Shown here: one piece after another, positions 10,321 through 64,000 of the stretch
Layout: each line of letters opens with the position of its first letter
Numbering within the stretch: the first letter of the stretch is position 1
DNA from: Fusicatenibacter saccharivorans
GTDB taxonomy: Bacteria; Bacillota; Clostridia; Lachnospirales; Lachnospiraceae
DNA: 64,000 bases
Direction: 5' to 3'
Assembly (NCBI RefSeq): GCF_015557635.1
Contig: NZ_JADNOP010000013.1
Location: forward strand, 1 to 64,000
Notes under the pieces: model-generated
Told to the model about the DNA's origin: nothing
Seen by the model: only the letters and a program-made list of their open reading frames with translations
Database searches by the model: none
Translations under genes and position numbers: made by a program

Positions 10321-10324
10321 TTGG

Positions 10325-10920: not shown

Positions 10921-10955
10921 CTATGCATCTATTTTCATCCATTATATATTTCGCA

Positions 10956-11799: not shown

Positions 11800-11824
11800 C
11801 CCAAAAACAAGGAGGACAAACAAA

Positions 11825-47687: not shown

Positions 47688-48169
47688 ATGACATCCTCCT
47701 TTCACCTGATCGGTTTCTAATGTCGGTCTGTTTTATTTTCCTGCGGTAAGTTTCACGTATAAATTGAAAGAAAAATAATTGATAAAATATAAATTTTCTT
47801 TCTTTTTAAAGATTATACCATATGTAGAAAGAAATATCATGTAAAAATAAAAAGTTAAAAGAAAATTTGAAAATGCGTCAAAAGTGGAAAAGGTTTGTAA
47901 TGCATGTCGAAAAATAGAAAAAGAACTGTCACAATTTCTTAAAAAATATTTGCGGAAAAAGAGGGCAGAAAGGGCAGAATGTGAAACAAAAGCAAAATAA
48001 AAAGAAGGAAACAAGACACGGAAAAGTATTCCAGGCAGGCCGCATGCAGAAGAAAAAGTGGGAATAAAAACCGATCCAATTCGTCAAAAAAGCGGAAAAG
48101 TGGTGAAAAATTGTGGGTTCTATGAAAAAAACGATGGGAAAAGACAGGAATGTTGTCGAAATATTCTAG
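47688..48169. other. AT-rich intergenic region, nothing coding seen
   Basis: About 480 bp, A-rich on the plus strand, with poly-A stretches and no ribosome binding site followed by an open frame of credible content. It probably holds the promoters of the divergent surface-protein and wall-hydrolase genes. Confidence 0.5.
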
Positions 48170-48220
48170 TTGACAAAAAGATGTAACACTGGTAGAATCG
48201 GTTTGTAACAAGATGTAACA
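48170..48220 (+). promoter_or_regulatory. Promoter with three TGTAACA direct repeats before the SH3 wall-hydrolase gene
   Basis: TTGACA (48170-48175), a 17-bp spacer, TAGAAT (48193-48198). TGTAACA occurs at 48182-48188 (in the spacer), 48204-48210 and 48214-48220, start-to-start spacing 22 and 10 bp. The repeats resemble half-sites of the WalR (YycF) box, TGTWAH-N5-TGTWAH, a regulator of wall hydrolases in Firmicutes, though the last pair is one base too close. Confidence 0.6.
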
Positions 48221-48249
48221 AAAACGTAATAATTATTCAGGAGGTAAGT

Positions 48250-49224
48250 ATGACATTCAAAAAAAGTTATGTGCCGGGCATCCTGGGGAGCGTGCTCACA
48301 CTGACTGTCATCATGGCTGCACCCGTAAAAGCAGAGACAAAGGAAGAAACCATTTTAAATAAAACAGACTGGAGCACAATGGCTGCAGCAAACGTAGAAG
48401 GATATGTCAACATCCGCAGCGAGGCAAACGCAGATTCCGAGATCGTCGGAGTTCTGATGCCGGGCTATGCGGTTACTGTAACAGAAAAAGGAGACGAGTG
48501 GAGCAAGATCTCTTCCAATGGTGTAGAAGGCTACATAAAGAATGAATATCTGGTATTTGGGGAAGAGGCAAAAGCACATTACCGCAATATGTGCGGTATC
48601 ACCGGAGTTGTTCAGGCGGACAGCCTTCGTGTCCGTGAGGCAGCATCCACAGATTCCGCGCAGGTTGGAACACTGACACAGAATGGTGAAGTCAGCATAT
48701 TCGGCGAAGAGGCTGACTGGTATCAGATCCAGTACAGCGGAAGCAGCGCATACGTTCATGGAGACTATGTGACACTTTCAGAGGAGTTAAAAGGTGCTGT
48801 TTCCATGGAGGAATACCAGGCATCACAGGCCTGTGCGGCAAGCAGCGCAGCAGCAGCCTCCACAGCAGGCAGTGCATCGGTAATTTCCGCAGACAGCAAT
48901 GATGTGGCAATGCTTGCAGCACTGATCGAGTGCGAGGCAGGCGGCGAGAGCTACACAGGAATGGTGGCAGTCGGAGCGGTTGTAGTAAACCGTGTCAACA
49001 GCGGTTCCTTCCCGAACAGCATTTCCGGCGTTATTTATCAGAGTGGACAGTTTACACCGGTTGCGACCGGAACTTTCCAGAGTGTGCTCGCACGCGGAGC
49101 GAGAAGTGACTGTTACGCAGCTGCACAGGCTGCACTTGCAGGTGAGAGCCCGGTTGGCGGATGCCTGTATTTCAACAGCGGCTACGGCAGCGGAATTCAG
49201 ATCGGATATCAGCATTTTTATTAA
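48250..49224 (+). CDS. Secreted cell-wall hydrolase: two SH3b domains and a SleB-like hydrolase domain
   Basis: 324 residues. A signal peptide ends near VKAE (about 29). SH3b domain one spans about 48-100 (GYVNIRSEANADS), domain two about 118-175 (DSLRVREAASTDS). An Ala/Ser-rich linker (190-215) leads to a Hydrolase_2 domain (about 217-324) with LIECEAGGESYTGMVAVGAVVVNRV and a C-terminal CLYFNSG. This domain is that of the spore cortex lytic enzyme SleB and related wall hydrolases; the Glu in ECEAGGE is the likely catalytic acid. AGGAGG precedes the ATG. Expression may respond to WalR through the upstream repeats. Confidence 0.9.
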   Translation: MTFKKSYVPGILGSVLTLTVIMAAPVKAETKEETILNKTDWSTMAAANVEGYVNIRSEANADSEIVGVLMPGYAVTVTEKGDEWSKISSNGVEGYIKNEYLVFGEEAKAHYRNMCGITGVVQADSLRVREAASTDSAQVGTLTQNGEVSIFGEEADWYQIQYSGSSAYVHGDYVTLSEELKGAVSMEEYQASQACAASSAAAASTAGSASVISADSNDVAMLAALIECEAGGESYTGMVAVGAVVVNRVNSGSFPNSISGVIYQSGQFTPVATGTFQSVLARGARSDCYAAAQAALAGESPVGGCLYFNSGYGSGIQIGYQHFY

Positions 49225-49292
49225 AAACAGGCGTGGAACCTTTGCAAGGGGATAGGCAGAGGGAAGACGCATTCCCATAGATTGACAGAACA

Positions 49293-49338
49293 GAAAAACG
49301 AGTAAGTGAACAGGGGAGACGTTCGCTTACTCGTTTTT
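49293..49338. terminator. Bidirectional terminator
   Basis: AAAAACGAGTAAG and GAAC pair with GTTC and CTTACTCGTTTTT around a short loop. It serves the wall hydrolase and the convergent nucleotidyltransferase gene, which ends at 49343. Confidence 0.9.
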
Positions 49339-49342
49339 CGTT

Positions 49343-50539
49343 TTATTGCAAATCGTTGTTGTCGAAGATTTTTAACAGCTTGGTCTTCCGGTTATCGGCC
49401 CGGAAGTCTGCCAGCGTCTGCCGCAGTGTCGTGTGGCGGATACGGTAGGTGTTGGACAGGAAACAGAAAAATGTGATGACCCAGAGAACCGGCCAGAGAA
49501 GTACGCATTTATGAAGCTTTGGGAACCGCAGCTTCATCTGAATATGGCCTTCGTGGAACCAGGCATGGATACCGGTGTGCTGGTAGGAACCGCTGCTGAC
49601 AATTTTTCTCTGTGTATCACTGCCGAAATCGCCGTCTGCGAGAATTTTTTCCAGAAAAATGGCACAGTCAGAGGCAGAGCAGTGAACCTGCGGATCAATG
49701 GAGGCAGAAAGACCGAAATAAATACGGCAGGATTCCAGAATCAGCTCATACAGATGAAAAATTTTCGATTCCCGGCACCAGAAGTGGATTTTTTCAAAAT
49801 TAACCTCGGAGGCATAACGTTCCAGATACAGAGTGAAATCGCAGAGCAGACGGCTGCCAAAACCGCTGTAGAGGTAATGCTTGAGCATGTGATGCAGCAT
49901 GTAAAACACATTTTCCGTTGGCGGCAGTACCGGATAGGTCTGACCGTAGAGTTCCACGAAAGATGGTTTCAGATGACTGGCGGAAAAAATTTCGTCCACC
50001 AGTTCATTGGCCCGGGAAAACTGATAAATACCGACGATGCGGTAATGGAGTTCCAGCGTAAAGGAGCGGCCAGTCTCGGGAAAAGTGAAGCGGTAGGTGA
50101 CATGGTGATCGCTCTCCTCCGGCTCCTCCGTGTAGCCATGAGCGTTAAGAATCCGGCAGGCACGGGAAAAAGCATCTTTTTCGGGAATATAAAGATCCAG
50201 ATCTCCCAGCTTCCGATATTCGGGAATGGGATAATTGGCGGCGAGACTGATGCCCTTTAAGAGAAAGCAGGGAATCTTCTCCGCAAGGAGGAGCGAAAAA
50301 GTAAGGCGTGTAAAATGTTCCAGCTGATAATAGGAGAGCAGCATCTGCTTCGTCTGCTGTTTGAGAGCAGAAAACTGCGGCTGCTGTTCAAAATATGGCA
50401 GAAGAAACGGAAGCGAACAGTGTTTTTCGGCCAGACGGTATAAGGCGGACGGATCCACACCATCAAGCGGGACCGGTTCGGACAAATCCGTGCATAAATT
50501 TTTTAAAATCTGTAAATAAACGGCATCAAGCGGCTGCAT
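49343..50539 (-). CDS. Nucleotidyltransferase-fold protein (NTP_transf_5 type)
   Basis: 398 residues. The core LLKGISLAANYPIPEYRKLGDLDLYI (split here over residues 93-118) matches the minimal nucleotidyltransferase signature with metal-binding Asp pair GDLDLYI. Conserved His-rich helices follow (VFYMLHHMLKHYLYSGF). Such proteins are often found beside PqqD-like genes in polysaccharide and peptide-modification loci; the nucleotide acceptor is unknown. It is divergent from the PqqD gene that heads the Pel operon, across about 215 bp. The C-terminal region has a hydrophobic stretch around 350-365. Confidence 0.78.
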   Translation of the reverse strand: MQPLDAVYLQILKNLCTDLSEPVPLDGVDPSALYRLAEKHCSLPFLLPYFEQQPQFSALKQQTKQMLLSYYQLEHFTRLTFSLLLAEKIPCFLLKGISLAANYPIPEYRKLGDLDLYIPEKDAFSRACRILNAHGYTEEPEESDHHVTYRFTFPETGRSFTLELHYRIVGIYQFSRANELVDEIFSASHLKPSFVELYGQTYPVLPPTENVFYMLHHMLKHYLYSGFGSRLLCDFTLYLERYASEVNFEKIHFWCRESKIFHLYELILESCRIYFGLSASIDPQVHCSASDCAIFLEKILADGDFGSDTQRKIVSSGSYQHTGIHAWFHEGHIQMKLRFPKLHKCVLLWPVLWVITFFCFLSNTYRIRHTTLRQTLADFRADNRKTKLLKIFDNNDLQ

Positions 50540-50656
50540 AAGATACTCCTTTGGGGAAAAGATTTTTCAAATATGTTTTAGTATATCACAAAATGGAAAA
50601 AGAAAGTGCAGAGAAATAAAACTTTATTACAGATATCAATAAAAAGCAAAATAAAG

Positions 50657-50685
50657 TTTACAATGCAATTGGGTAGGGCTATAAT
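50657..50685 (+). promoter_or_regulatory. Promoter of the Pel-type operon
   Basis: TTTACA (50657-50662), a 17-bp spacer, TATAAT (50680-50685). The leader to the PqqD start is about 65 bases. I looked for, and did not see, a c-di-GMP riboswitch in it. Confidence 0.7.
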
Positions 50686-50756
50686 AGAACTATTAGTATC
50701 CTTGTTTTTCTCTGAGGTAAGAAAGAAAAGCAAGACGCAGAAGAATGGAGATAAAA

Positions 50757-51026
50757 ATGACCAGAAAAGGTGATTTTGTACTCAGACAGATTGCAGACGA
50801 ATATGTTCTGATTCCATATGGGGCGACGGCGGAAAAGATGAATCAGGTACTCACACTGAGTGAAACAGCAGCTTTTATTTACGAGCAGACCGGCGATGCC
50901 GTATCTGCAAAAGAGATTGCAAAACGGCTCGGAAAAGCTTACGATATGCCGGCGGAGGAAGTGCAGGAGGACGTAAACGCAGTGCTGGAAACATTCCGAA
51001 ACTATGGTATCCTGGAGCGTGTTTGA
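50757..51026 (+). CDS. PqqD-like peptide-binding protein
   Basis: 89 residues, the size of PqqD/RRE (RiPP recognition element) proteins: VLRQIADEYVLIPYG at the N-terminus and a C-terminal winged-helix part with LSETAAFIYEQ. PqqD-like proteins present peptides to modifying enzymes. Here there is no radical SAM enzyme and no evident precursor peptide, so the role is open. I chose the ATG at 50757, preceded by GGAG, over that at 50745. It is the first gene of the Pel-type operon, 28 bp before pelD. Confidence 0.8.
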   Translation: MTRKGDFVLRQIADEYVLIPYGATAEKMNQVLTLSETAAFIYEQTGDAVSAKEIAKRLGKAYDMPAEEVQEDVNAVLETFRNYGILERV

Positions 51027-51054
51027 AAAATCTACGAAAACGGCGAGGTAGCGT

Positions 51055-53235
51055 ATGATAGTATTTTTAGTCGGCGGCGAGAGCAGACTGATGGATGCTC
51101 TGATCACCAAAATGGAAAAAGACGGACATAAGACATATCTGCTGACCGGAAAGCGGGATGGAAGAGGAAAGTACCGCCGCGTCTTCGAACGGTATAATTT
51201 CCCCTACGACAGCGAGAGCGTGCGGGAAATTTTTACCAATGTAAACCCGGATCTTGTTATTTTTCTCGGAGCTTACGATACCAACTATGACTGGAGTGAT
51301 GCCAGAAGAGAGTCGGTCCGTTACACCGCAGATCTGACGAACCTTCTTTCGGCGTATGCATTTAAACAAAATGGTCGTTTTGTGTACCTGTCTTCCGAAG
51401 TTGTTTATGGCCGGTCTTACAGCAGCGATATCCACGAAACGGAACCGGCATCGTCCAAAAGCTTTCAGGCAATGGCGATTTTGCAGGGAGAAAATATCTG
51501 CAAAAGCTATCGTGACACCAGAGAGATGGACACGCGGGTTCTGCGCTTCGATCATATGTATGATATTCCACGGAAAGGAAAGGCCGACAATAACCCATGT
51601 TTCCAGATGATGCTGGAAATGCTGAAAACCAATCAGATTGCAGCAAACAGCCGAAATGTTTTTTCCATGATTTATCAGAGCGATGCGGTGGAGTTTGCGT
51701 ACCGCGTGATGATGGCAGAGCATCCGAAATATCCGCTGTATCACATTTCTTCCGGCGAGGTCATCAGTCAGATGAAACTGGCAGAGCTGATTCAGCAGAA
51801 TGCGGGAGACGGAACGACGATTCGGGATGATACCGTCGGAGAGGGCTATCGCCTGGTGCTGGATGGCAGACGGTACAGGAAAGAATTTGACGGAAAAATT
51901 TTTGTCCCATACGAAGAAGGCGTAAAAGCTGTTGTAGAGTATATGAAGAAATACAGCAGTTCCTTTTTACAGAGAGAAGATACGGGCGCCGGATGGGGCA
52001 ACCGGGTCTGGAGACTGCTGGTGCGGATTTTCCGCATGCTGGCTCCGTATCTGGAAAACCTGATCTGTTTTATCCCGTTCTTTATGATTCATAACCGTGC
52101 GGTCGGCAGCCAGTATTTTGCAAAGCTGGATGCGTATCTTTTGTATGTGCTTTTGTTTGCGATTGTGTATGGACAGCAGCAGGCGATCTTCTCAGCGCTT
52201 CTGGCGACGGCTGGCTACTGTTTCCGCCAGATGTATAACCAGAGCGGTCTGGAAGTGCTGATGGATTACAGTACGTATATCTGGATGGCGCAGCTTTTTA
52301 TCCTGGGCATGGTAGTCGGTTACATGCGTGACCAGATTCATCATATCAAAAAGGACGATCAGGAGGAGATCAGCTATCTGCACGGACAGCTTGGCGATAT
52401 GACTGAGATCAACGACAGCAATGTGCGGATGAAACAGATTTTTGAACTGCAGCTTGTCAACCAGAAGGACAGTCTTGGAAAAATTTATGAAATTACATCG
52501 TCACTGGATCAATACGGTGCCTATGAGGTGCTTTTCTATGCAGCACAGACGATTTCCAAGCTGATGAATACGGAGGATGTGGCGGTTTACACCGTTGCCA
52601 ACCAGTCGTATGCGCGTCTCTTTTCCTTTACTTCGCCGACGGCCAGAAAGCTGGGAAATTCCATCCGCTACCCGGAGATGGAAGCGATGTATACGGATCT
52701 GAAAGAACGCCGCGTATTCATCAACAAGACGATGGATGAGCGCTATCCGCTGATGGCGCAGGCCATTTATGCGGAGGATGAAATGCAGATCATTCTGATG
52801 CTGTGGGGACTTCCGTGGGACCGCATGAACCTGGCCGAGTCCAATCGTCTGACGGTCATCAGCTATCTGATTCAGAATGCGGTTGTCCGTGCAAACCGTT
52901 ATCTGGAAGCACTCCGGGAGCACCGTTATCTGGGCAACAGCAGCATTTTGGAAAAAGAGGCATTTACACAGCTGGTAAGTGCGTTTTTTGAGGCAAAGCG
53001 GAATGGACTGACAGAATGTTCCCTGGTAAAGATTACCTGCGGAGAAGAAAAATATCTGGAAGCAGCAGAGGTGCTCGGAAAGAAACTGCGACAGACCGAT
53101 TACGTCGGAATGCTGGATGGCGGCCTGTATGTATTGCTTTCGGATACAGAGGAAAAGAATGCGCTGGGTGTTATTACTCGTTTTGCAGAAGCTGGATATG
53201 AGAGTACAATTGCAAATGGGGAGGTGGCCGCATGA
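51055..53235 (+). CDS. pelD: PelD-like c-di-GMP receptor with N-terminal SDR domain
   Basis: 726 residues. Residues 1-305 form an extended-SDR/epimerase-like domain (VYLSSEVVYG), but the catalytic YxxxK appears as FQAMA, so it is probably inactive. About 325-425 holds four membrane helices, then a short coiled coil. A GAF-like domain spans about 460-600, and a degenerate GGDEF domain ends the protein. In the latter, GGDEF is replaced by DGGLY (688-692), while the inhibitory-site motif RxxD is intact (Arg679, Asp682), as in PelD receptors that bind c-di-GMP without making it. It should gate polymer synthesis at the membrane. pelE overlaps by ATGA, a sign of coupling. Confidence 0.85.
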   Translation: MIVFLVGGESRLMDALITKMEKDGHKTYLLTGKRDGRGKYRRVFERYNFPYDSESVREIFTNVNPDLVIFLGAYDTNYDWSDARRESVRYTADLTNLLSAYAFKQNGRFVYLSSEVVYGRSYSSDIHETEPASSKSFQAMAILQGENICKSYRDTREMDTRVLRFDHMYDIPRKGKADNNPCFQMMLEMLKTNQIAANSRNVFSMIYQSDAVEFAYRVMMAEHPKYPLYHISSGEVISQMKLAELIQQNAGDGTTIRDDTVGEGYRLVLDGRRYRKEFDGKIFVPYEEGVKAVVEYMKKYSSSFLQREDTGAGWGNRVWRLLVRIFRMLAPYLENLICFIPFFMIHNRAVGSQYFAKLDAYLLYVLLFAIVYGQQQAIFSALLATAGYCFRQMYNQSGLEVLMDYSTYIWMAQLFILGMVVGYMRDQIHHIKKDDQEEISYLHGQLGDMTEINDSNVRMKQIFELQLVNQKDSLGKIYEITSSLDQYGAYEVLFYAAQTISKLMNTEDVAVYTVANQSYARLFSFTSPTARKLGNSIRYPEMEAMYTDLKERRVFINKTMDERYPLMAQAIYAEDEMQIILMLWGLPWDRMNLAESNRLTVISYLIQNAVVRANRYLEALREHRYLGNSSILEKEAFTQLVSAFFEAKRNGLTECSLVKITCGEEKYLEAAEVLGKKLRQTDYVGMLDGGLYVLLSDTEEKNALGVITRFAEAGYESTIANGEVAA

Positions 53236-54188
53236 GCATAAACGGAACACTGGCGTTTGTGATCCTGTGGATCGTGAATGCTCTGATTGCGCTTGTGTAT
53301 CTGCTGGTTGGAATTTTCCTTTATGTTCCGGCGTGTGATCTGAAAAGAGAGCAGGGGGAGGAGATTCAGTACGACAATCGGAGAGCATTTTTTATTCGTT
53401 TTATCGTCATGGTTCTCTGCCCGGTCGTCGGTCCGGCATTTTTTCTGTGCAGTTATCTGATTTACAAGACGGTATTCCGCCAGGCGGTCGATCTGGAAGA
53501 TGTTATTTTCAGCAAGGAACGTGTGCAGACACATCTGAAAGCGGACGAGGAGCGGGAGCGCAACATGGCGCCGCTGGAAGAATCGCTTGCCGTCAGTGAC
53601 AAGCGGAATATGCGTATGCTGATGCTGAATGTGATCCGCGGAGATATGCAAAAATCCCTGGAATCCATTACCATGGCACTGAACAGCGAAGATTCTGAGA
53701 CATCCCATTATGCGGCCTCGGTATTGCGGGATGAGCTGAACGATTTCCGGTCCAATGTGCAGAAAATGTACACGCAGATGCAGCAGGAAACAGAGACGGA
53801 AACAGAATGTGAAGAAATGCTGATCGATTATATGAATCGAATTTTAAGTCAGAAAATTTTTACAACAATGGAGCAGACCAAGTATGTCAATATGCTGGAA
53901 GAAGCGGCCGAATCGCTGTACCAGAAAAACGGTGCACGAATTACGGCAGACCGGTACGAGGGACTGTGCCTGAAACTTCTGGATTTAAAAAAAATTCCGG
54001 AAACCGAAAAGTGGTGTATGCGTCTGGCACGGCAGCACGGAAATGCGCTGGCAGCGTATACCTGCCGGTTAAAACTGTATTTCACAATGGGGGAAAAAGA
54101 GAAATTCTTCGAAGTTTTGCAGGAACTGAAAGAGTCTGATATTATTATTGATAATGAGACGCTGGAGCTGATCCGGATTTTCAGTTAA
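53232..54188 (+). CDS. pelE: PelE-like membrane/helical-repeat protein
   Basis: 318 residues. Two membrane helices near the N-terminus (about 7-30 and 55-77) precede an all-helical region of TPR character, with KWCMRLARQHGNALAAYTCRL at its end as a typical repeat. PelE works with PelD, PelG and PelF in the inner-membrane complex of Pel systems. Sequence conservation in this family is low, so the call rests on size, topology and position right after pelD, with which it overlaps by four bases. Confidence 0.72.
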   Translation: MSINGTLAFVILWIVNALIALVYLLVGIFLYVPACDLKREQGEEIQYDNRRAFFIRFIVMVLCPVVGPAFFLCSYLIYKTVFRQAVDLEDVIFSKERVQTHLKADEERERNMAPLEESLAVSDKRNMRMLMLNVIRGDMQKSLESITMALNSEDSETSHYAASVLRDELNDFRSNVQKMYTQMQQETETETECEEMLIDYMNRILSQKIFTTMEQTKYVNMLEEAAESLYQKNGARITADRYEGLCLKLLDLKKIPETEKWCMRLARQHGNALAAYTCRLKLYFTMGEKEKFFEVLQELKESDIIIDNETLELIRIFS

Positions 54189-54228
54189 GCAGGAAGAAAA
54201 AGAAAAGCAGAAAGGAGGAACAGAGATT

Positions 54229-56574
54229 ATGACAATGAAATGGCTTACAATTTTACAGTTTCTGGAAATTGTCGCGGCATATGGCATTGTAACTTTGTTC
54301 CTCCCATGGCTGGTACTCCGGAAGCGGTTCCGCCGTTTTTCTGCTGCGGAACAGCTGACCGGATATTTTTTTGCGGGAAATTTTTATATCATCTATCTGG
54401 TATATCTGCTGCAGTTTCTTCATATCAGCAATCGTGTGACACTGACGGCAGGCACCGTGGGGCCGTTTCTTCTGGTGTGGATCTGGAAAAGAAGAAGTAA
54501 GATTCCAGGTGTGATCGAGTGGGTTCTGGAGAATGTAGAGCGTCTGCTGAGTGGAGAACGTGGAAAGAAAACTTCGCTTGTGCAGCTGCGAGGGACCATT
54601 TACAGGCGGTTTTTCCGTGGAAAAAGAAAGCAATGGCTGAATGTGCTGCTGGAGCTTGCTGTGATGGGGGCCGCGATTGCGGCAATTACGTATGTCTATG
54701 GGCCGAATATGATCGAAGCTTACGGTTATAAAGCCAGTGATATCCCGGTACACAACTACTGGATCAATGAGCTGGATCGGAACAACATCTGGGTTGCAGG
54801 TGTGTACCCGTATGGATTTCACATCGTGATTTATTATCTGCATATGGTGTTTGGGATCAAAACGTATGTCTTGCTGCGGATCTTTGGCGTAGTGCAGACA
54901 TATTTTGTATATCTGGCAATGGTTGTGGCGCTGAAAATGGTGTGCAAGGGAAGATTTACTCCATATCTTGGCGTGCTGTTCTATGTGATGGATATTTTTA
55001 ACCGGAATACGTATGCAAGATTTGAAGGTGCGCTGCCGCAGGAATTCAGTATGATCTTTATTCTGACGTCTGTCTGCATGGCGATCCGTTTTTTTCAGGA
55101 ATTTGCAAAAGAGCAGAAGGCAGAAGAGAATGAAAAAAAAGAACTGGATCAAAACTGCCGTTGGTATCTGATCCAGTTTGCCATTGGATTTTCGCTTACG
55201 CTGACGATCCACTTTTACAGCACGATGATCGCCGGGCTGTTTTGCATTGGCGTTGCAGTCGGCTTTTGTTTCCGGTTTGCCCGGTGGAAGTATTTCCGCA
55301 GAATTATGGCAACGGGAATCCTGAGTGTGCTGCTTTCTGTACTGCCCATGGCGGCGGGTGTTGCGATGGGAAAAGGACTGCAGGGATCCCTGTACTGGGG
55401 ATTAAGTGTTATCAATGGAGGAAAGGATGATGAAACGGAAGCGACAGATTCTCTGGTGGAAAATACAGAGCTGAGCACCATTTCGGAAAGTGAGGGGACA
55501 GAAAACAGGGATGGCGGCTCAACAGTCAGTGCATCACAGGTCGAGGCGCTGAAAAAAGCGGCTGAAGAGAAACTGGCAGAACAAGCGAAGGAGCAGCAGA
55601 AGCCATTAAAGGAACGTTTAAAAGAAAAATTTGCAGCAGTTCGAAGCAGCATTCGCGTAAATGTGATGAATGTAAAACCATATATTGTGGAAATTACCCT
55701 GGGAAGTATTGTGCTTTTGGCTGCGCTTGGAAGTTTGATGGTGCTTTTACGGGAGATTGATTTTGCGGGAGTGATTTTTTCCACTGCCTTTTATCTGCTC
55801 TGTATGTGCTGTCTGCAATGTGCATCCCTGCTGCATTTGCCGGCATTGATGGATCCAAACCGCTGCAGCATTTTCCTTTGCTATTCGGTTTGTTTTTCAT
55901 GGACGCTGGGAGCAGATGCCATCGTACATCTCCTGATACGATGGTGGAAGAAAAGATGGGTCAGCAATGTTGCATCTATCCTTACTTTAGTCATAGCGGT
56001 TTCTGCTGTGATATCAAATGGTCTTCTGAGAAAGCCGATTGTTGTAGACGCTCTGGAAGATAATGGAGCGATTGCCTGCGTTACCAATATTTTAAAAGAA
56101 AACAGGAATTTCACCTGGACCATCTGCTCTGCCGATGATGAACTTCGAATGACGGAGTTTTACGGCTACCATTATGAGACCATTACTTTTCTGCGTGAAC
56201 TGCAGGATCTGGAAAAAAATCCGGAGATCATTATGCCGACACAGAATGTATATTTTTTTGTGGAAAAAATTCCAATTGATTATGCGGGAAGTACCAACCA
56301 CAAAGAAGTAACCGTGGAGGGAGCAGAAGCACCCCTTCCGTCAGCAGGCGGAATTGAACCGTATTTTGCAGAAAACCGGTGGTATACGATGTGCCATATT
56401 TATTACTGGACACAGAAATTTAAAGAACTTTATCCAGACGAGATGGAAGTCTATTATGAAACAGACAGTTTTATTTGTTATCGTGTACAGCAGAACGTAA
56501 ACAGTCCGTACAATTTTGCAATTGATTACGGATATAACAATCCAACGCCAAAGGCAGGAAGCGAGGAAGAATAG
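54229..56574 (+). CDS. Polytopic membrane protein of unknown function in the Pel-type operon
   Basis: 781 residues with about 11-12 membrane helices. After helix four an extracytoplasmic loop contains DIPVHNYWINELDRN and GVYPYGFHI, which recalls the acidic first loop of GT-C glycosyltransferases. A charged coiled-coil-like insertion (about 430-475, rich in Lys/Glu/Ala) divides the membrane part. About 170 residues at the C-terminus appear to lie outside the cell. It is not part of the minimal Pel set known to me. By topology it may be a lipid-linked sugar transferase or a polymer-modifying enzyme. AAAGGAGG precedes the ATG. Confidence 0.6.
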   Translation: MTMKWLTILQFLEIVAAYGIVTLFLPWLVLRKRFRRFSAAEQLTGYFFAGNFYIIYLVYLLQFLHISNRVTLTAGTVGPFLLVWIWKRRSKIPGVIEWVLENVERLLSGERGKKTSLVQLRGTIYRRFFRGKRKQWLNVLLELAVMGAAIAAITYVYGPNMIEAYGYKASDIPVHNYWINELDRNNIWVAGVYPYGFHIVIYYLHMVFGIKTYVLLRIFGVVQTYFVYLAMVVALKMVCKGRFTPYLGVLFYVMDIFNRNTYARFEGALPQEFSMIFILTSVCMAIRFFQEFAKEQKAEENEKKELDQNCRWYLIQFAIGFSLTLTIHFYSTMIAGLFCIGVAVGFCFRFARWKYFRRIMATGILSVLLSVLPMAAGVAMGKGLQGSLYWGLSVINGGKDDETEATDSLVENTELSTISESEGTENRDGGSTVSASQVEALKKAAEEKLAEQAKEQQKPLKERLKEKFAAVRSSIRVNVMNVKPYIVEITLGSIVLLAALGSLMVLLREIDFAGVIFSTAFYLLCMCCLQCASLLHLPALMDPNRCSIFLCYSVCFSWTLGADAIVHLLIRWWKKRWVSNVASILTLVIAVSAVISNGLLRKPIVVDALEDNGAIACVTNILKENRNFTWTICSADDELRMTEFYGYHYETITFLRELQDLEKNPEIIMPTQNVYFFVEKIPIDYAGSTNHKEVTVEGAEAPLPSAGGIEPYFAENRWYTMCHIYYWTQKFKELYPDEMEVYYETDSFICYRVQQNVNSPYNFAIDYGYNNPTPKAGSEEE

Positions 56575-56576
56575 AG

Positions 56577-58445
56577 ATGGTTTCGCGTAGAAATTTTGTA
56601 GCAATTACAATCATTATGGCGATCGTTCTTTTCTTATTCCAGGGATTGAATGTGGCAAGAGAAAAGCTGAACTATTACGATACAAATGCATATGCGAAGG
56701 ATAAAGAAACGTTAGCGGATGGAAGCGGAGCATTTGGAGCAGTGGATGCTTCCGATCAGATTAACATAGAGGGCAGCAGGGGAACCATTGTTTATATCGG
56801 AGCAGAAAAGAGCGACTCTATCGGTACCGTTGTTCAGGAATGGTGCCGGTATATGAAATATGAGTCAGCAGTCTATTCATCGATAACAAAATATGAGAAA
56901 GCAATGGAGAAAAAAGATACCAGGCTGCCGGAAATGGTGATTGTGAATTCGGAAAATATAGACTGGACAACCGTAAAGGATACCGTGGAACTGCAAAAAT
57001 GTACAGAACAGGGGATTCATCTTGTATTTGCAAATCTGCCTGATGTTTCTGTGATAAAAAAGAATCAGAAATTCATGGAATTGCTTGGCATCAAAAAAAT
57101 TACAGCAGATCAGGTAACGGTGAAGGGAATGGATTTGTATGCGAATCTGATGCTTGGCGGAGAAAACATTTATGAGGCGAAGAAACAGGAAGAGAAAAAG
57201 ATGCAGGATCTTGAACTGACTTTTCCGTGGTTTAAACTGGCAGGTGGTACGAAAGCTTATATGAAAGGTATTCCGGAAGACAGTACCTTAAAAGTGCAGG
57301 AACATCCCGTTGCAATCTGGCGAAAAAGTACGGGAAATGCCTATGTTTTTGCAGTAAACGGAGATTATATGGAGGATGAAACGGGACTTGGAATCCTGAC
57401 CGGAATGCTTTACGAGACAAGAGATTATCTGATTTACCCGGTCGTAAATGCACAGAATCTGATTGCTGCTAATTTTCCGGTTCTGACAGAGGAAAATACA
57501 GCACAGATGCAGGAGATTTACGGCAACACAGCAACAGCTGTTAACCGTGATATCATCTGGCCCTCTTTTGCTTCTGTTTATGAAAAGAATCATCTCGGAC
57601 TGACCTGTATGCTGGCGCCGAAGCTTGATTACAGCAGTACAACAAAACCAGATGGCAGTATGCTGAACTATTATGTGAAACTGATTAATGAGCAAAAAGG
57701 GGAAACAGGGCTTTCCGGTACTTGTGAGTCAGAAACGGATGTGATACAGAAACTGCAGGAAGATCAGGAGTTCATGCAAAAAAAATTGAATACGTTTGCT
57801 TTTTCTTCTTTTTACGCTGGAGAACAGACGGATGAAGAAATGGAAAAAGCATTGCAGCAGCCTGTTCTTGAACAGATTCGTACGGTTGTAAAAGCCAAGG
57901 ATACCGAGGGGGATATTGTAAGATATCAGAACGATCAGGTTACAAGCCAGAAAGTGATATCGGAAGAAGAGGAGCAATTTACATACCGTTCCTGGATGAA
58001 AGTAAAGAGTGTGGAATCTGCACTTGGATATACCAGTGTTCTGCTGGATTTGGATGCTATTCTTTATCCGAAAACAGAAGAGGATCGCTGGGAAAATATC
58101 GGCAAGGAATTTGCGGCGAATCTTTCTACGTACTGGAAGCTATTCTCCGGTTTTGACGGCACGACCGTATCGGAATGTGACACCAGAATCCGGACATTTC
58201 TGAATTCCCGTTATGAAGATGACAGAGAAGACAATGCCATCACATTAAGGACAACAGGAACCGATGAAACAGCGTATTATGTTCTTCGCACGCACAATGA
58301 AGATGTCAGAAAAGTTACAGGCGGAACAGCAGAAAAACTTGAAGATTCCGCGTGGCTGATTCGCGCAGAGCAAAGTGAGGTAAGGATTACGCTTGGAGCA
58401 TCGGATCAACGGTATTACTATGAGAAAGGGGCGAAAAACGAATGA
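56577..58445 (+). CDS. DUF2194-like extracytoplasmic protein, candidate PelA-deacetylase analogue
   Basis: 622 residues. One N-terminal membrane helix (about 8-25) anchors a large external part. The region around 335-355 (HLGLTCMLAPKLDYSS) and its position just before pelF fit the deacetylase-type PelA component of Gram-positive Pel loci, which is reported to be distinct from Pseudomonas PelA. I do not see the canonical deacetylase HxxxH/Asp motif clearly, so activity is uncertain. It starts two bases after the preceding stop and overlaps pelF by ATGA. Confidence 0.55.
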   Translation: MVSRRNFVAITIIMAIVLFLFQGLNVAREKLNYYDTNAYAKDKETLADGSGAFGAVDASDQINIEGSRGTIVYIGAEKSDSIGTVVQEWCRYMKYESAVYSSITKYEKAMEKKDTRLPEMVIVNSENIDWTTVKDTVELQKCTEQGIHLVFANLPDVSVIKKNQKFMELLGIKKITADQVTVKGMDLYANLMLGGENIYEAKKQEEKKMQDLELTFPWFKLAGGTKAYMKGIPEDSTLKVQEHPVAIWRKSTGNAYVFAVNGDYMEDETGLGILTGMLYETRDYLIYPVVNAQNLIAANFPVLTEENTAQMQEIYGNTATAVNRDIIWPSFASVYEKNHLGLTCMLAPKLDYSSTTKPDGSMLNYYVKLINEQKGETGLSGTCESETDVIQKLQEDQEFMQKKLNTFAFSSFYAGEQTDEEMEKALQQPVLEQIRTVVKAKDTEGDIVRYQNDQVTSQKVISEEEEQFTYRSWMKVKSVESALGYTSVLLDLDAILYPKTEEDRWENIGKEFAANLSTYWKLFSGFDGTTVSECDTRIRTFLNSRYEDDREDNAITLRTTGTDETAYYVLRTHNEDVRKVTGGTAEKLEDSAWLIRAEQSEVRITLGASDQRYYYEKGAKNE

Positions 58446-59905
58446 GAGTCTGCATTGTTGCGGAAGGATGCTACCCTTTCGTCGTAGGAGGTGTTTCAAG
58501 CTGGGTACACAGCCTGATCCAGCTGTTTCCGGAAACGGAATTTGTGATTCTTGCAATTGCGGCAAATCGTTCCCAGCGGGGAAAATATGCCTATGAATTG
58601 CCGAAAAATGTGTCTGCGGTCTATGAACTTTATCTTGACGATGTGGACTGGAGCGGCAGCAAGAAACTGCACAGAAAACGGCTGAAAAAAGAACAGTATC
58701 AGGCACTGCGCAGTCTGATTCTGGATCAGGACATCGAGTGGGATGTTTTGTTTGACCTTTTCCAGAAAGAAAATGTTTCCCTGAATGCGCTGCTGATGGG
58801 GGAGGATTTTCTGAATGCGGTCAGAGACTGCTATAATCTGAAATACAGTCAGATTGTCTTTTCTGATTTCCTGTGGACGATGCGTTCGATTTATCTGCCG
58901 CTGTTTCTCACCATGCAGACGGAAATACCGCGTGCCGATTTGTACCACTGTGTTGCAACCGGTTATGCGGGGGTTCTTGGTGCCATGGCAAAACACTTCT
59001 ACGGCAGCCGTCTCCTGATTTCTGAGCACGGAATTTACACCAGAGAGCGGGAAGAAGAACTGATCAAAGCCAAATGGGTAGAAGGAATCTATAAAAATAT
59101 CTGGATCGATCAGTTTCGAAAAATGTCAAAGCTGGCGTACAACGAAGGGACGCTCATTACATCACTGTTTGAACATGCACGGGAACTGCAGATCGAACTT
59201 GGCTGCCCGATCGAAAAAACCATGGTCACGCCAAACGGAATCCGTGTGGAAAATCTGCAGAATATTCCGGGGAAAACGGAAGAAGATGAAGGAAAAATCA
59301 ACATCGGTGCGGTACTGCGTGTGACCCCGATTAAAGATGTCAAAACGATGATTCAGGCATTTGGTTTTGCGAAAGAAAAAGATGACCGTCTGAAACTCTG
59401 GATTATGGGACCATGGGAAGAAGACCGGGAATATGCCGAGGAGTGTTTCCAGCTTGTCTCGGATATGGAAATCCCGGATGTTGTTTTTACCGGAAGAATC
59501 AATATCCGCGATTATCTTGGAAGAATGGATGTGACCATTCTGACCAGCATAAGTGAGGGACAGCCGCTGACCATTCTGGAAAGCTATGCGGCGCATAAGC
59601 CGGTGATTGCAACGGATGTCGGAAACTGCTATGGACTGATTTACGGGGAAAGTGATGATTTCGGTGCGGCCGGAATTGTCACGCATATCATGAATATTGA
59701 AGAAATCGCGCAGGCGATGCTGGATATGGCGGCAAATGAAAAAATGCGCCTGGAAATGGGAGAGACCGGCTATCGCCGTGTGATGGAGAAATATAGAGTA
59801 GAATATATGCAGAAAACATACTGGGAGATTTACCGGGATTTCGCAGAACAGATGGGGCTGGAGTGGAAGGAAGAATCGGTAAAACTGCCGGATAAGGAAA
59901 AGTAA
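58442..59905 (+). CDS. pelF: PelF-like GT4 glycosyltransferase
   Basis: 487 residues, cytoplasmic GT-B enzyme that polymerises the Pel chain in characterised systems. The N-terminus EGCYPFVVGGVSSWVHSL is a PelF hallmark, and SEHGIYTRER near residue 200 is another. The C-terminal donor domain has VTPNGI, GAVLRVTPIKDVKT and the GT4 motif SEGQPLTILESYA with the conserved Glu pair region. UDP-GlcNAc or UDP-GalNAc would be the donor by analogy. Overlaps the DUF2194-like gene by four bases and is followed by pelG after 34 bp. Confidence 0.92.
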   Translation: MRVCIVAEGCYPFVVGGVSSWVHSLIQLFPETEFVILAIAANRSQRGKYAYELPKNVSAVYELYLDDVDWSGSKKLHRKRLKKEQYQALRSLILDQDIEWDVLFDLFQKENVSLNALLMGEDFLNAVRDCYNLKYSQIVFSDFLWTMRSIYLPLFLTMQTEIPRADLYHCVATGYAGVLGAMAKHFYGSRLLISEHGIYTREREEELIKAKWVEGIYKNIWIDQFRKMSKLAYNEGTLITSLFEHARELQIELGCPIEKTMVTPNGIRVENLQNIPGKTEEDEGKINIGAVLRVTPIKDVKTMIQAFGFAKEKDDRLKLWIMGPWEEDREYAEECFQLVSDMEIPDVVFTGRINIRDYLGRMDVTILTSISEGQPLTILESYAAHKPVIATDVGNCYGLIYGESDDFGAAGIVTHIMNIEEIAQAMLDMAANEKMRLEMGETGYRRVMEKYRVEYMQKTYWEIYRDFAEQMGLEWKEESVKLPDKEK

Positions 59906-59939
59906 AACCGGAGCAGGCACAAAAAAGGAGGAAGAGGAT

Positions 59940-61406
59940 ATGGCAGGAATCGGAGTTCGGCTGAATCGGATTTTTGAAAAAAATACACTTACGACAAATC
60001 TGGTTGGATTTTTCTACAGCACCGTAGTGACGGTTGCGCCCATGTTTGTCATCATTATCAATCTGATTTTAATGGAATATCTGCTGGATTTTGCCAGTGT
60101 GGGATATGTGACAAGAGAGCTGTTTTCCTGCACGATTCTTTATACCTTTATCTTTTCTCTTCTGACGGCGTCCCCGTTTAATGCGGTGCTGTCCTGCTAT
60201 ATGTCTGATGTGATCTACGAAGAGCGGTATCAGGATATTTTACCCTGCTATCATATTGGTATGCTTCTGAACATTGGTCTCAGCTGTCTGTTGGGGATTC
60301 CGTTCTGTCTCTGGGAACATTTTGTGGGAAAGGTACCAACCGCATATGTATTCTGTGGCTTTTGCGGTTATATCAGTCTGGTGCTTGTTTTTTACTCGAT
60401 GATTTATCTTTCTATTTGCAAAGATTATCAACGGATTTCACAGTATTTTTTCTTCGGCATGCTGGTGGCATTTGTCCTTGCCCTGATTTTACACTTTATT
60501 CTGAAGTGGGAGACAACATGGAGTATGCTGTTTTCTCTGACGATCGGATTTTTTGTGACGGCAACGCTGGAAAATGCGCTGATCCGCCGGTATTTTGTGC
60601 GAAATAGCAATCATTACCGGCCGGTACTGCAGTATTTTAGGAAATATTGGAAATTGATTTTTACAAACTTTTTGTATATCCTTGGGTTATACATTCACAA
60701 TTTTGTGTTCTGGACAACGGATATGCGGATGGAGATTGCAAAAAGTTTCGTATGTAACCAGCCATACGATATGGCATCCTGTCTCGCCATGTTTACCAAC
60801 ATTTCCGCAACGATCATCTTTATTGCGCGTGTGGAGATGAACTTTCACGAAAAATATAAACTGTACTCGGAGGCAGTCATCGGCGGAAAAGGCGCCGATA
60901 TTGACAATGCGAAGAAACGGATGTTCCGTCAGCTTTCCAGTGAACTGATGACACTGGCGCGGTTACAGTTTATCATTTCTGTTGTGGTTTATCTGATCTG
61001 TGTTATTCTGCTACCAGGGGAGGGATTTTCCGGTATGACACTGAAAATTTATCCGTCACTTGCGGTTGGATATTTTATTCTGTTTCTGATGTATGCGGAA
61101 ATTATCTTCCTGTATTATTTTGACGATCTGACAGGGGCAATCTGGACAGCGATCGTGTTTTGCCTGGTGACATGGATTGGCAGTCTGATTGCAACACATT
61201 TACCGGTGATCTGGTATGGCGCCGGGGTCATAGCAGGAGCATTTGCAGGATGGAGTGTGGCATATGCGAGACTGCGATGGGTAGAAAAAAACATGGACAG
61301 ACATGTCTTTTGCCGTGGAAATCTGATTCCTCAGGGAAAGGGGAAACGGCCATCCGGTATGGTTTATGAAAGAAAAGCAGAGCAAGAGCAGAAGGAGGAA
61401 GCGTAA
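59940..61406 (+). CDS. pelG: PelG-like polysaccharide export membrane protein
   Basis: 488 residues, about 12 membrane helices, related to the MOP/Wzx flippase superfamily. The start MAGIGVRLNRIFEKNT matches PelG proteins, as do LLTASPFNAVLSCYMSDVIYEE and FARVEMNFHEKY-like IIFIARVEMNFHEKY in the middle. PelG is thought to move the polymer made by PelF across the membrane. AAAGGAGGAAG precedes the ATG. The DUF2304 gene begins immediately after the stop (TAAATG). Confidence 0.9.
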   Translation: MAGIGVRLNRIFEKNTLTTNLVGFFYSTVVTVAPMFVIIINLILMEYLLDFASVGYVTRELFSCTILYTFIFSLLTASPFNAVLSCYMSDVIYEERYQDILPCYHIGMLLNIGLSCLLGIPFCLWEHFVGKVPTAYVFCGFCGYISLVLVFYSMIYLSICKDYQRISQYFFFGMLVAFVLALILHFILKWETTWSMLFSLTIGFFVTATLENALIRRYFVRNSNHYRPVLQYFRKYWKLIFTNFLYILGLYIHNFVFWTTDMRMEIAKSFVCNQPYDMASCLAMFTNISATIIFIARVEMNFHEKYKLYSEAVIGGKGADIDNAKKRMFRQLSSELMTLARLQFIISVVVYLICVILLPGEGFSGMTLKIYPSLAVGYFILFLMYAEIIFLYYFDDLTGAIWTAIVFCLVTWIGSLIATHLPVIWYGAGVIAGAFAGWSVAYARLRWVEKNMDRHVFCRGNLIPQGKGKRPSGMVYERKAEQEQKEEA

Positions 61407-61790
61407 ATGAGCACAGCAGCAATTGTAAAAGCTTGCGTTATTTTGATGGGAATTGGAATTATGATCGTTACCTTCGTGCTTCATGCGAAAAAGAAGCTGA
61501 CCGTAAACCTGGCAGTTACCTGGGAACTGCTTGGAATTGCAGCAATCTTAAGCGGAGCGGTTCCGAGATTTTCCGGATGGAGCAGCCGGATCGGGCTTGG
61601 GAGCCTCGTTGTTCTTCTGATCACAGCGCTTCTGGTTCTGTGGGGCGTTTACCAGATGACAATTCAGATCTCTTCCCTGTTAATGAAAAACCAGGAACTG
61701 GCGATTCTGGTTTCTCTTTTGAACCAGGAGAATGAAAGAATTCTGAGAGAACTGGAAAAACTGACGGGCAAAAATGCAAGAGAGTTATAA
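61407..61790 (+). CDS. DUF2304-family small membrane protein
   Basis: 127 residues with three hydrophobic helices and a C-terminal coiled-coil-like tail (ELAILVSLLNQENERILREL). DUF2304 proteins typically sit beside polyprenyl-phosphate (dolichol-phosphate mannosyltransferase-like) GT2 enzymes, as here with the GT2 two genes on, and are thought to help them at the membrane. Abuts pelG with no gap. Confidence 0.8.
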   Translation: MSTAAIVKACVILMGIGIMIVTFVLHAKKKLTVNLAVTWELLGIAAILSGAVPRFSGWSSRIGLGSLVVLLITALLVLWGVYQMTIQISSLLMKNQELAILVSLLNQENERILRELEKLTGKNAREL

Positions 61791-61813
61791 GGGAATAGAA
61801 GAAGGAAGAACGA

Positions 61814-63016
61814 ATGAAGAAAATTTTGTTTGTGATCAACACCCTTGGCCGGGCGGGAGCGGAAACAGCGCTGCTGGAACTTTTGCGCCGCCTGGATGCG
61901 GAGGAATATGAAATTTCACTTTACGTACTTTTGGGGCAGGGTGAAATGATTTCCCAGGTACCGCAGAGGGTACATGTGAAAAATAAGAAAATCTGTACCG
62001 CTTCTGTGCTGTCCGGTGCGGGGCGGAGAAAACTGATACAGACATCTTTTCTGGCGTTTTTCCGCCATGGTCGCACCATAAAGAAAATGCAATATGTGAT
62101 ACAAAATTTTTTCCGAATGAAAAAAACTGGAAACATTCAGCCGGACAAGCTGCTCTGGCGTGTAATTTCGGATGGAGCAGACCGATTTTCGGAAACCTTC
62201 GATCTGGCGGTTGCTTACCTGGAAGGCGGTTCTGCTTATTACGTTGCCGATCATGTGAATGCTAAGAAAAAAGCTGCCTTTGTCCATATTGCATACGGCA
62301 ATTCCGGTTATACAAGGGAAATGGATCGGGACTGCTACGAAAAGATGGATCAGATCTTTACCGTTTCGCAGGAGACGCGCCGTCATTTTCTGGAATTTTA
62401 TCCGGAATATGAGAAGAAAGTGCAGGTTTTTCACAATATTCTCGATACAGACCGGATTGCGCGTGAGGCGCAGCTGCCGGGCGGTTTTTCAGATTCCTAT
62501 ACAGGAATTCGAATCTTAACTGTCGGAAGACTGGCCTATCAGAAAGCATATGACATCGCAATTCCGGCCATGAAAAAGATCCGCGAAGATGGCTATGAGG
62601 CGCGATGGTATGTACTGGGAGAGGGATCCGAGAGAAATGCGCTCGAAAAGCAGATTGCAGAGCTTGGCCTGCAGGAAGATTTCCAGCTGCCGGGTGCAAA
62701 AGAGAATCTGTTTCCTTATTATGCACAGTGTGATCTCTACGTTCATGCAACACGGTTTGAAGGAAAAAGCATCGCCATCCAGGAAGCGCAGACACTTGGC
62801 TGTGCTGTGATTGCATCGGACTGTGCGGGAAACAGAGAGCAGATTGTGGACGGGGAAGATGGTCTTCTCTGTACGCTGACACCGGAAGGCATTGCCGAAA
62901 AAGTAGAAGAACTGCTGGATGATCCGAAGAAACGGGAACGGCTTGCAGCAGCGGCAAAACAGAAAATGAACGGTCAGACAGAGGAAATCTGGAAACTGCT
63001 GAATCTAATGAAATGA
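61814..63016 (+). CDS. GT4-family glycosyltransferase
   Basis: 400 residues, GT-B fold. N-terminal NTLGRAGAETALLELLRRL is the acceptor-side glycine loop typical of GT4; the C-terminal half has ILTVGRLAYQKAYD, VLGEGSERNALE, and the donor motif FEGKSIAIQEAQTLGCAVIASD. It could extend or decorate a lipid-linked glycan. AGAAGGA precedes the ATG. It is 13 bp from the GT2 gene. Confidence 0.9.
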   Translation: MKKILFVINTLGRAGAETALLELLRRLDAEEYEISLYVLLGQGEMISQVPQRVHVKNKKICTASVLSGAGRRKLIQTSFLAFFRHGRTIKKMQYVIQNFFRMKKTGNIQPDKLLWRVISDGADRFSETFDLAVAYLEGGSAYYVADHVNAKKKAAFVHIAYGNSGYTREMDRDCYEKMDQIFTVSQETRRHFLEFYPEYEKKVQVFHNILDTDRIAREAQLPGGFSDSYTGIRILTVGRLAYQKAYDIAIPAMKKIREDGYEARWYVLGEGSERNALEKQIAELGLQEDFQLPGAKENLFPYYAQCDLYVHATRFEGKSIAIQEAQTLGCAVIASDCAGNREQIVDGEDGLLCTLTPEGIAEKVEELLDDPKKRERLAAAAKQKMNGQTEEIWKLLNLMK

Positions 63017-63029
63017 GGCGGACATACAT

Positions 63030-63848
63030 ATGAGACAAAAAGAGGTACTGCTGATTATTCCGGCATACAACGAGGAAAAAAATATAGAAAAGGTCATGAA
63101 ACAGCTGGCGCAGCCGGAGATAGCAGATATTGTTGATGTGCTGGTCATGAACGATGCTTCTTCTGACAATACCAACTGGCTGGCGAAGGAATATGGCTGT
63201 GCGGTGGTTACTCATGTTTTTAATCTGGGATATGGCAGTGGGCTGCAGCTTGGATATAAATATGCAATCCGAAGGGGCTATTCTTATGTTATTCAGATGG
63301 ATGCGGATGGGCAGCACGATGTGTGCAATATCCCGAAAATTTACCAGAGATTAAAGGAAAAAGATGATGATGGAAGAACGCCGGACATTGTGCTTGGATC
63401 CCGTTTCATGAAGGGGAGTACAGAGTTTGAAGTTTCCTTTGCAAAAAAAATGGCATTTGTCCTGTTTCGAAAAATGCTGTATTTGGCAACTGGACGGAAA
63501 ATTGCGGATCCGACAACCGGACTGCAGGGTTTAAGCCGGAAAGCTGTTTTATACTATTCCAAATATAATCATTTCGATGATAAATATCCGGATACTAATA
63601 TGATTACTCAGATGCTGCTTCTTGATTTTAAAGTTGTGGAGATTCCAGCTGTTATGCATGCTCGGACTTCGGGGAAAAGCATGCATTCTGGTTTGAAGCC
63701 AATCTGGTATATGATGCGGATGTTTTACAGTGTCCTGGCTGTGATTTTCCGGTGTAAGGTATTGAAAATGGATGCAGGAGCAGGACGGATTGATGTGGAG
63801 AGAGAAGATAAAAAGTATCCTGAGCTGGCAGAAGGGAAGAGAAGCTAA
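63030..63848 (+). CDS. GT2-family glycosyltransferase (polyprenyl-phosphate sugar transferase type)
   Basis: 272 residues. GT-A fold: LIIPAYNEEKNIEKVM, VMNDASSDNT, GLQLGYKYAIRRGYSYVIQMDADGQHD with the metal-binding DAD, then GSRFMKGS and DPTTGLQGLSRKA. This resembles DPM1-like enzymes that load a sugar onto a polyprenyl phosphate, which fits the DUF2304 partner. An extended C-terminal helix region may touch the membrane. GAGGCGG lies before the ATG. The next gene starts inside its last codons. Confidence 0.9.
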   Translation: MRQKEVLLIIPAYNEEKNIEKVMKQLAQPEIADIVDVLVMNDASSDNTNWLAKEYGCAVVTHVFNLGYGSGLQLGYKYAIRRGYSYVIQMDADGQHDVCNIPKIYQRLKEKDDDGRTPDIVLGSRFMKGSTEFEVSFAKKMAFVLFRKMLYLATGRKIADPTTGLQGLSRKAVLYYSKYNHFDDKYPDTNMITQMLLLDFKVVEIPAVMHARTSGKSMHSGLKPIWYMMRMFYSVLAVIFRCKVLKMDAGAGRIDVEREDKKYPELAEGKRS

Positions 63849-64000
63849 AGGCAGGGCAGAAAAGAAAGAATTTCCAGAACTGCGGGGAAAACAGGATAAA
63901 AAAGAGCTTTTCCAGAAAGCGATACTTCAGGAAAGCAGGAAAGCGATACAGAATCCCGGGTGTGGCTGGTATCATTTATATACTTTCAACGCGGCGCAAA
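63793..64000 (+). CDS. Start of a further operon gene, cut by the window edge
   Basis: An ATG at 63793, after AGGA at usable spacing, opens a frame of at least 69 codons that runs to the end of the window. It overlaps the last 56 bases of the GT2 gene. The visible part is basic and charged, without a signal peptide, and then reads NPGCGWYHLYTFNAAQ. This vaguely resembles the opening of TIM-barrel glycan-active proteins that begin with an NPxRGWY-type motif. Too little is present to name it. If real, it would be the eleventh gene of the operon. Confidence 0.5.
   Translation, partial: MWREKIKSILSWQKGREAKGRAEKKEFPELRGKQDKKELFQKAILQESRKAIQNPGCGWYHLYTFNAAQ

Follow-up and report, generated by a model that had tools for sequence, protein, structure and literature searches.

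What does a Pel locus make when the deacetylase it encodes has lost its active site? Pel is usually regarded as a deacetylated, charged biofilm glue. The question is raised by an operon at the end of the stretch of DNA that we analyzed (the window), which comprises bases 1 to 64000 of the 130-kb contig NZ_JADNOP010000013.1 of Fusicatenibacter saccharivorans; positions above 64000 lie beyond the window on the same contig. The original prediction for this DNA had described a Pel-type operon with extra genes and a cationic or acetylated product gated by cyclic di-GMP (c-di-GMP). We propose, with a probability of about 0.55, that the operon encodes a Pel-type synthase-dependent system in which lipid-linked glycosylation of a Pel-like polymer has taken the place of extracytoplasmic deacetylation. 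At the level of genes the evidence for this swap is strong, though it rests on one clade.

Open reading frame (ORF) calls and scans with Pfam and NCBIfam found all of the named genes open and in the order described earlier, and profile matches bore out the naming of PqqD, PelF, PelG, DUF2194, DUF2304 and the glycosyltransferases (GTs) GT4 and GT2. Judged by sequence, the identity of PelF and PelG is unambiguous. PelF scored 361.5 bits against NF038011 (cut-off 100), with E372 and E380 invariant among 17 aligned proteins, and PelG scored 523 bits against PF16933 (cut-off 29), the sole match over the cut-off in the genome. Both models outscored general families, and synteny pointed to no other named polysaccharide system, with the caveat that doubt has been raised whether a larger pel cluster of Roseburia makes Pel (Whitfield 2020; PMC7112168).

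Pel loci fell into two classes. PelG exceeded its cut-off in 34 of 200 genomes of the family; genes were first called in 34 stretches, drawn from 32 of these genomes, and the remaining two genomes were added later. In class A, the genes DE-A(DA)-FG are usually followed by CotH, VTC and DUF4956 and often by DUF4832 (Pfam on examples), and PelG is 25 to 29% identical to that of the window. Class B, the type found in the window, runs PelD-PelE-GTC-A(DA)-PelF-PelG-DUF2304-GT4-GT2-DUF4832, with variations, and its PelG is 38 to 71% identical to the window's. The split held in 80 named loci and in 20 more from class, phylum and genus searches. One class B locus belongs to an isolate, Schaedlerella arabinosiphila DSM 106076 (L088). 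The named loci, picked as the 80 top-ranking of 550 in a search with a class B PelF, are uninformative on the frequency of class B; less biased counts came from the family, class, phylum and genus surveys and from a whole-genome survey for GT-C. Gene content was counted in distinct loci that had both PelD and PelG and extended at least 5 kb past the latter, and the counts of small genes are lower bounds because our simple ORF caller masks some of them (it missed the window's PqqD). Among 69 class B loci, GT4 was found in 62, GT2 in 61, DUF2304 in 53, a same-strand DUF4832 gene in 63 and CotH in 1. Among 23 class A loci, CotH was found in 16, and GT2, GT4 and DUF2304 in none.

The gene for the DUF2194 protein (PF09960, 75.9 bits; cut-off 30.4) had been counted among the additions to the operon. 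We rejected that placement because a profile match to 9ZAU, the PelADA structure from Bacillus cereus, makes its product the PelA(DA) homologue; 9ZAU was the only solved relative found by profile (E = 5.5e-5, mainly in the C-terminal part). When the AlphaFold model of the window's protein was searched with Foldseek, the heparan N-deacetylase NDST1 came nearest (E = 7e-9; template modeling [TM] score, 0.40), and 9ZAU was not among the 50 matches listed. In B. cereus, PelADA activity is required for Pel and involves D262 as the base, D263 and HxxxH for zinc, and H488 as the acid (PMC13254593). Class A proteins (12 of the first set) carried the motifs (L/I)DDFP, HGYNH and HPDD, the last of which would contain H488, given its numbering (D490, D491). 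In the window's protein, AANFP stands at the first motif, the HxxxH loop falls in a gap of some 21 residues and the third motif (MT5) has no His, so that the catalytic columns are A298, N299, S380, a gap and no His at MT5. The zinc and acid/base residues of PelADA, a CE26 deacetylase with a CBM114 module, are absent from this protein.

This loss was shared across the class. We called a copy dead when its four MT1 and MT2 columns were not all DDHH, leaving out ORFs shorter than 500 amino acids (aa) and exact duplicates. The 117 distinct copies comprised 89 that were dead with GT-C, none that were intact with GT-C, 25 that were intact without GT-C (17 of them beside CotH) and 3 that were dead without GT-C. 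In a separate count, none of 90 dead copies retained either His of HxxxH; the second MT1 column still held Asp in 14 of them, and the third-motif column held His in 2. The three dead copies without GT-C were those of L059, where GT-C sits just outside the stretch, L089, where the contig stops within the GT4 gene, and L148. Despite their lost residues, the dead genes are full length, with a ratio of nonsynonymous to synonymous substitution rates of 0.115 to 0.18 (seven close pairs, three sharing members). Given these ratios and a confident model with an N-terminal helix (predicted local distance difference test [pLDDT], 90.4), the genes are under purifying selection and not decaying.

The added gene is that for a 781-aa protein with no family match in Pfam or NCBIfam; DUF6541 matched 3 of 52 of its relatives. 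Its AlphaFold (AF2) model had a pLDDT of 90.2 and a predicted TM score of 0.89, and the first 18 Foldseek matches were all GT-C enzymes (OST/STT3, DPY19, AglB and PglB; E = 5e-6 to 5e-3), the next one having E = 0.098. In the predicted structure, the fold class is clearly GT-C, of a subfamily absent from the libraries that we used. By sequence, the profile of the family found no convincing match among solved structures (best E = 0.081). The residues D171, H175, R264, E272 and H328 were kept in 98 to 100% of 85 proteins. In 42 of 69 class B loci, the gene lay directly 3' of pelE; in 24 it came downstream of pelG, and in 2 upstream of pelD. One locus, L040 (538-9885), holds the GTC-pelA(DA) gene pair as a tandem repeat.

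From its neighbors GT2 and DUF2304, we infer that the GT-C enzyme transfers from a polyprenyl-phosphate sugar. The solved relatives of GT2 found by profile were dolichol-phosphate mannose synthase (DPMS; E = 3e-12) and ArnC, its DxD motif was kept in 71 of 71 proteins, and the model of PpgS, a synthase of polyprenyl-phospho-N-acetylgalactosamine (GalNAc), matched all 29 GT2 members scanned. The DUF2304 protein scored 28 bits against PF10066 (cut-off 25.5), the sole match in the genome; this family model also has matches in C. glutamicum. The best NCBIfam model for the GT4 protein downstream was PglJ (95 bits, below the cut-off of 500). Together, GT2, DUF2304 and GT-C agree with the added lipid-linked sugar steps of the original prediction. 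Five class B loci outside the main tree group (L057, L061, L063, L065 and L154) have GT-C and GT2 between pelE and pelA(DA), and four of these have the DUF2304 gene 5' of pelD.

In the family survey, the GT-C profile matched 22 of 200 genomes, 20 of which had PelG over the cut-off. The other two (G001 and G027) carry PelD-PelE-GTC-A(DA) on incomplete loci, either truncated where the contig ends or disrupted within pelF. GT-C was lacking from 14 genomes with PelG: 12 of class A, one of CotH type (G092) and one with tandem PelA(DA) copies (G090). A tree of 72 of 116 PelG rows, built by a quick method with a midpoint root and no bootstrap, placed all 39 GT-C rows within one branch of 43 rows (Shimodaira-Hasegawa-like approximate likelihood ratio test, 99); the other four (L036, L043, L059 and L073) come from contigs or stretches that stop short or from fragmentary loci. 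Besides the window's sequence, alignments A2, A4 and A5 took in 51 of 66, 30 of 62 and 28 of 55 listed rows, respectively. The GT-C clade is mainly Lachnospiraceae. The variant system in gut Clostridia that the original prediction suggested is supported. Among seven genomes of the window's genus, only the window's own and G968 had PelG over the cut-off, and G968 is class A; the type of locus therefore changes over short distances. One class B locus, L167 (6722-14558), is broken in pelF: long unrelated ORFs come after a 144-aa piece of PelF, PelG is absent, and a PHROGs scan of that piece returned nothing. Beside another, L047 (15650-18268), stands an 872-aa protein that fuses a GT2 domain to SpaA prealbumin-like repeats.

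The window's PelD retains a candidate regulatory site. Its RxxD motif, described earlier as intact, is present as RQTD at the I-site position, and a profile of the C-terminal part places it on the I-site of a GGDEF structure (E = 0.0017). All 31 aligned class B PelD proteins kept the Arg and Asp of this motif and a later Arg. In Pseudomonas PelD, R367, D370 and R402 are required for binding (PMC8461298), and the later Arg may be the equivalent of R402. From its sequence, RxxD is likely a c-di-GMP site. Nine GGDEF matches exceeded the cut-off in the genome; the Pfam PelD_GGDEF model found nothing there, a result that is uninformative because it was also silent in all 14 controls. PelD also has an N-terminal domain that earlier inspection had passed over, which is SDR-like by Pfam with neither the cofactor nor the YxxxK motif kept. 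Such N termini have been reported from clostridia, streptococci and Brevibacillus (PMC7112168). PelE matched neither Pfam nor NCBIfam, and its name rests on position and on a home-made profile, which picks out PelE-like ORFs in other classes as well (74 to 232 bits). In one class A locus, L060 (12653-15267), the pelD gene is divided between two frames.

In the mechanism that we propose, PelF would polymerize a GalNAc-type chain and PelG would export it, with PelD and PelE gating synthesis through c-di-GMP on RxxD. The PelA(DA) homologue, keeping its membrane anchor and predicted fold and having no active site, would probably just hold the emerging chain. Inside the cell, GT2 with DUF2304 would load a sugar on polyprenyl phosphate; the lipid-linked sugar would be flipped, and GT-C would move it onto the chain outside. 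Operon position and two analogues suggest that the Pel-like chain is the acceptor and that the window's polymer is decorated. In one analogue, PpgS and Rv3632 load GalNAc on polyprenyl phosphate and Rv3779 passes the sugar to arabinogalactan (PMC9671496), a set that likewise combines a PpgS-type GT2, a small membrane partner and a membrane glycosyltransferase acting outside (PMC9671496, PMC3485146). That system differs in its acceptor, and the PpgS cut-off is not reached here. We take Rv3632 to be a DUF2304 protein. The wall polysaccharide of Streptococcus mutans follows the same three-component logic, in that SccN/SccM and SccP/SccQ pair an undecaprenyl-phosphate-sugar synthase with a GT-C that adds side chains outside, whereas their acceptor is polyrhamnose exported by an ATP-binding cassette (ABC) transporter (PMC11754754). 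A cationic polymer, one of the two predicted, finds no support because the PelA(DA) homologue is without its catalytic residues; the product is probably acetylated and glycosylated. We give about even odds to the broader proposal that a clade of Lachnospiraceae and some Oscillospiraceae traded deacetylation for side-chain glycosylation, turning a cationic adhesive into a branched neutral polymer, with the dead deacetylase retained as a scaffold from which a new GT-C family receives the chain.

Several observations weigh against this interpretation. The matches to the GT-C model had TM scores of only 0.32 to 0.44, and the best NCBIfam match of GT2, to PpgS, reached 79.3 bits, far under the cut-off of 370. 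Not every class B locus yielded the whole set, given the counts for DUF2304 (only 53 of 69) and GT2 (only 61 of 69). GT-C is also found apart from pel, in that G019 has a second copy elsewhere and the sole copy of G025 lies on another contig beside a DUF4832 gene; we therefore rejected strict limitation of the family to pel. A strict exclusion of GT-C and CotH was rejected as well, since L041/L105 carries both. (This hybrid locus, L041/L105/L146, has CotH, VTC and DUF4956 plus GT4 and GT-C, and its PelA(DA) is dead.) Dead PelA(DA) also occurs with no GT-C in view, in the CotH-type locus L148, whose copy lacks D263 and one His and keeps other residues, and in one of two tandem copies of L169, where one has HxxxH and the other is degraded; judging from these copies, the active site may have been lost on more than one occasion. 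Finally, because all GT-C loci lie in one PelG clade, a single acquisition may account for both GT-C and the dead site, and their association counts as roughly one event.

The same data bear on other explanations. GT2, DUF2304 and GT-C might glycosylate a different target (a surface protein, a lipid or a wall glycan) and merely share the operon, leaving the Pel-like polymer acetylated and undecorated. The nearest solved structures of the GT-C fold, OST and DPY19, are protein glycosyltransferases, and the unlinked copies in G019 and G025 would suit such a role. We nevertheless regard it as unlikely, given the prevailing position of GT-C between pelE and pelA(DA), its restriction to genomes with pel core genes (22 of 22 in the family survey) and the tandem gene pair of L040. 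It is quite unlikely that the polymer is not Pel, through a changed specificity of PelF, and that the locus makes a capsule or a teichoic-acid-like polymer. A non-Pel product has been raised for the larger Roseburia cluster (PMC7112168), class B includes metagenome-assembled genomes recorded as Roseburia (L083, L086 and L092 among others), and many class B loci have Wzx-like and nucleotidyltransferase genes nearby. Set against these points are the PelF score and its two invariant Glu residues, the retention of PelD, the putative PelE and PelG, and the same-strand DUF4832 protein in 63 of 69 loci, which is of the type that acts as a Pel-disrupting hydrolase in Streptococcus intermedius (PMC12345266).

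The requirement for PelADA activity in B. cereus could instead mean that the product is ordinary cationic Pel and that a deacetylase encoded elsewhere stands in for the dead homologue. This seems highly improbable. A change common to 89 copies, with GT-C in every locus, calls for more than a stand-in enzyme, and no recurring deacetylase was found among the nameable neighbors of class B loci, although many neighbors are unnamed and no genome-wide deacetylase search was made.

The proposed replacement of deacetylation by glycosylation would set the window's locus apart from described pel loci. This locus shares PelD with RxxD, a putative PelE, PelA(DA), PelF and PelG with pelDEA(DA)FG of B. cereus (PMC7112168, PMC13254593) and differs in having lost the deacetylase site, gained GT-C, DUF2304, GT4 and GT2, and in carrying the SDR domain on PelD. 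With the CotH-type loci of streptococci and clostridia (CotH, VTC [a polyphosphate polymerase], DUF4956 and DUF4832), it shares the SDR-PelD and a DUF4832 protein (PMC7112168, PMC12345266), whereas the window's own locus yielded no CotH, VTC or DUF4956 (class B has them in 1 locus of 69, class A in 16 of 23), and PelD of S. intermedius is without GGDEF, unlike the window's (PMC12345266). The larger Roseburia cluster resembles it in combining pel genes with GTs and a nucleotidyltransferase (legend of S7 Fig in PMC7112168) and may be of the same type as class B; the text on that cluster mentions neither a lost active site nor GT-C. Gram-positive pel, SDR-PelD, DUF4832 and the larger Roseburia cluster were already known (2020). 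Our literature searches returned no account of dead PelA(DA) with GT-C, although S7 Fig of PMC7112168 may already draw these genes. Since the clade keeps pelA(DA) without an active site, homology-based surveys of pelADA would mispredict its polymer. The locus also brings to light a GT-C family that lacks annotation and, in gut commensals, provides a natural experiment for studying roles of PelA beyond catalysis.

Table 1. Positions of the operon's genes and flanking features on the contig.
Feature	Position	Strand	Basis
Secreted SH3-domain cell wall hydrolase	48250-49224		PF08239, PF07486
NTP_transf_5 protein	49343-50539	-	
Promoter-like site TTTACA-17-TATAAT	50657-50685	+	11/12 consensus positions
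PqqD-like protein, 93 aa	50745-51026	+	PF05402, E = 1.2e-12
PelD, 726 aa: degenerate SDR domain, membrane part, GAF/GGDEF-like part with RxxD	51055-53235	+	SDR Pfam matches; RxxD kept
PelE, 318 aa	53232-54188	+	Position and home-made profile
Predicted GT-C glycosyltransferase, 781 aa, unannotated family	54229-56574	+	AF2 model, Foldseek
PelA(DA) homologue (DUF2194), 622 aa, active site lost	56577-58445	+	PF09960; profile match to 9ZAU
PelF polymerase, GT4	58442-59905	+	NF038011
PelG exporter	59940-61406	+	PF16933
DUF2304 small membrane protein	61407-61790	+	PF10066
GT4 glycosyltransferase	61814-63016	+	PF00534
GT2, polyprenyl-phosphate-sugar synthase type	63030-63848	+	PpgS best NCBIfam; solved relatives DPMS, ArnC
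DUF4874+DUF4832 protein, 467 aa, first part	63772-64000 (ends 65175)	+	PF16116 and PF16173; start uncertain, overlaps GT2
Convergent DUF4874+DUF4832 paralogue	65167-66615	-	

The boundaries of the operon were also reconsidered. A single promoter had been predicted, and the promoter-like site upstream of PqqD was the best of 13 such sites in 50400-64000. A match at 11 of 12 positions was reached in 5 of 1,000 shuffles of the 204-bp intergenic region alone, while the number of sites in 50400-64000 was not unusual (13 versus a shuffle mean of 21.8). An upstream riboswitch was rejected, as an Rfam scan of 48000-64000 gave no match at the gathering score. The two ATGA overlaps noted before lie between PelD and PelE (53232-53235) and between DUF2194 and PelF (58442-58445). 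At its other end, the operon extends beyond the window to about 65175, and the further open frame of the original prediction, which is indeed open, encodes the DUF4874+DUF4832 protein.

That protein shows no N-terminal membrane segment, while its convergent paralogue has one, as do 29 of 30 convergent DUF4832 copies of class B loci; one of the two paralogues may therefore be cytosolic. The operon is flanked by the NTP_transf_5 protein, PqqD and, at 8997-12028 of stretch L001, a PqqD-containing 421-aa protein and an ABC transporter. Profiles of the 421-aa or NTP_transf_5 type matched 24 of the 69 class B loci and none of the 23 of class A. The secreted SH3-domain cell wall hydrolase is encoded 5' of the operon.

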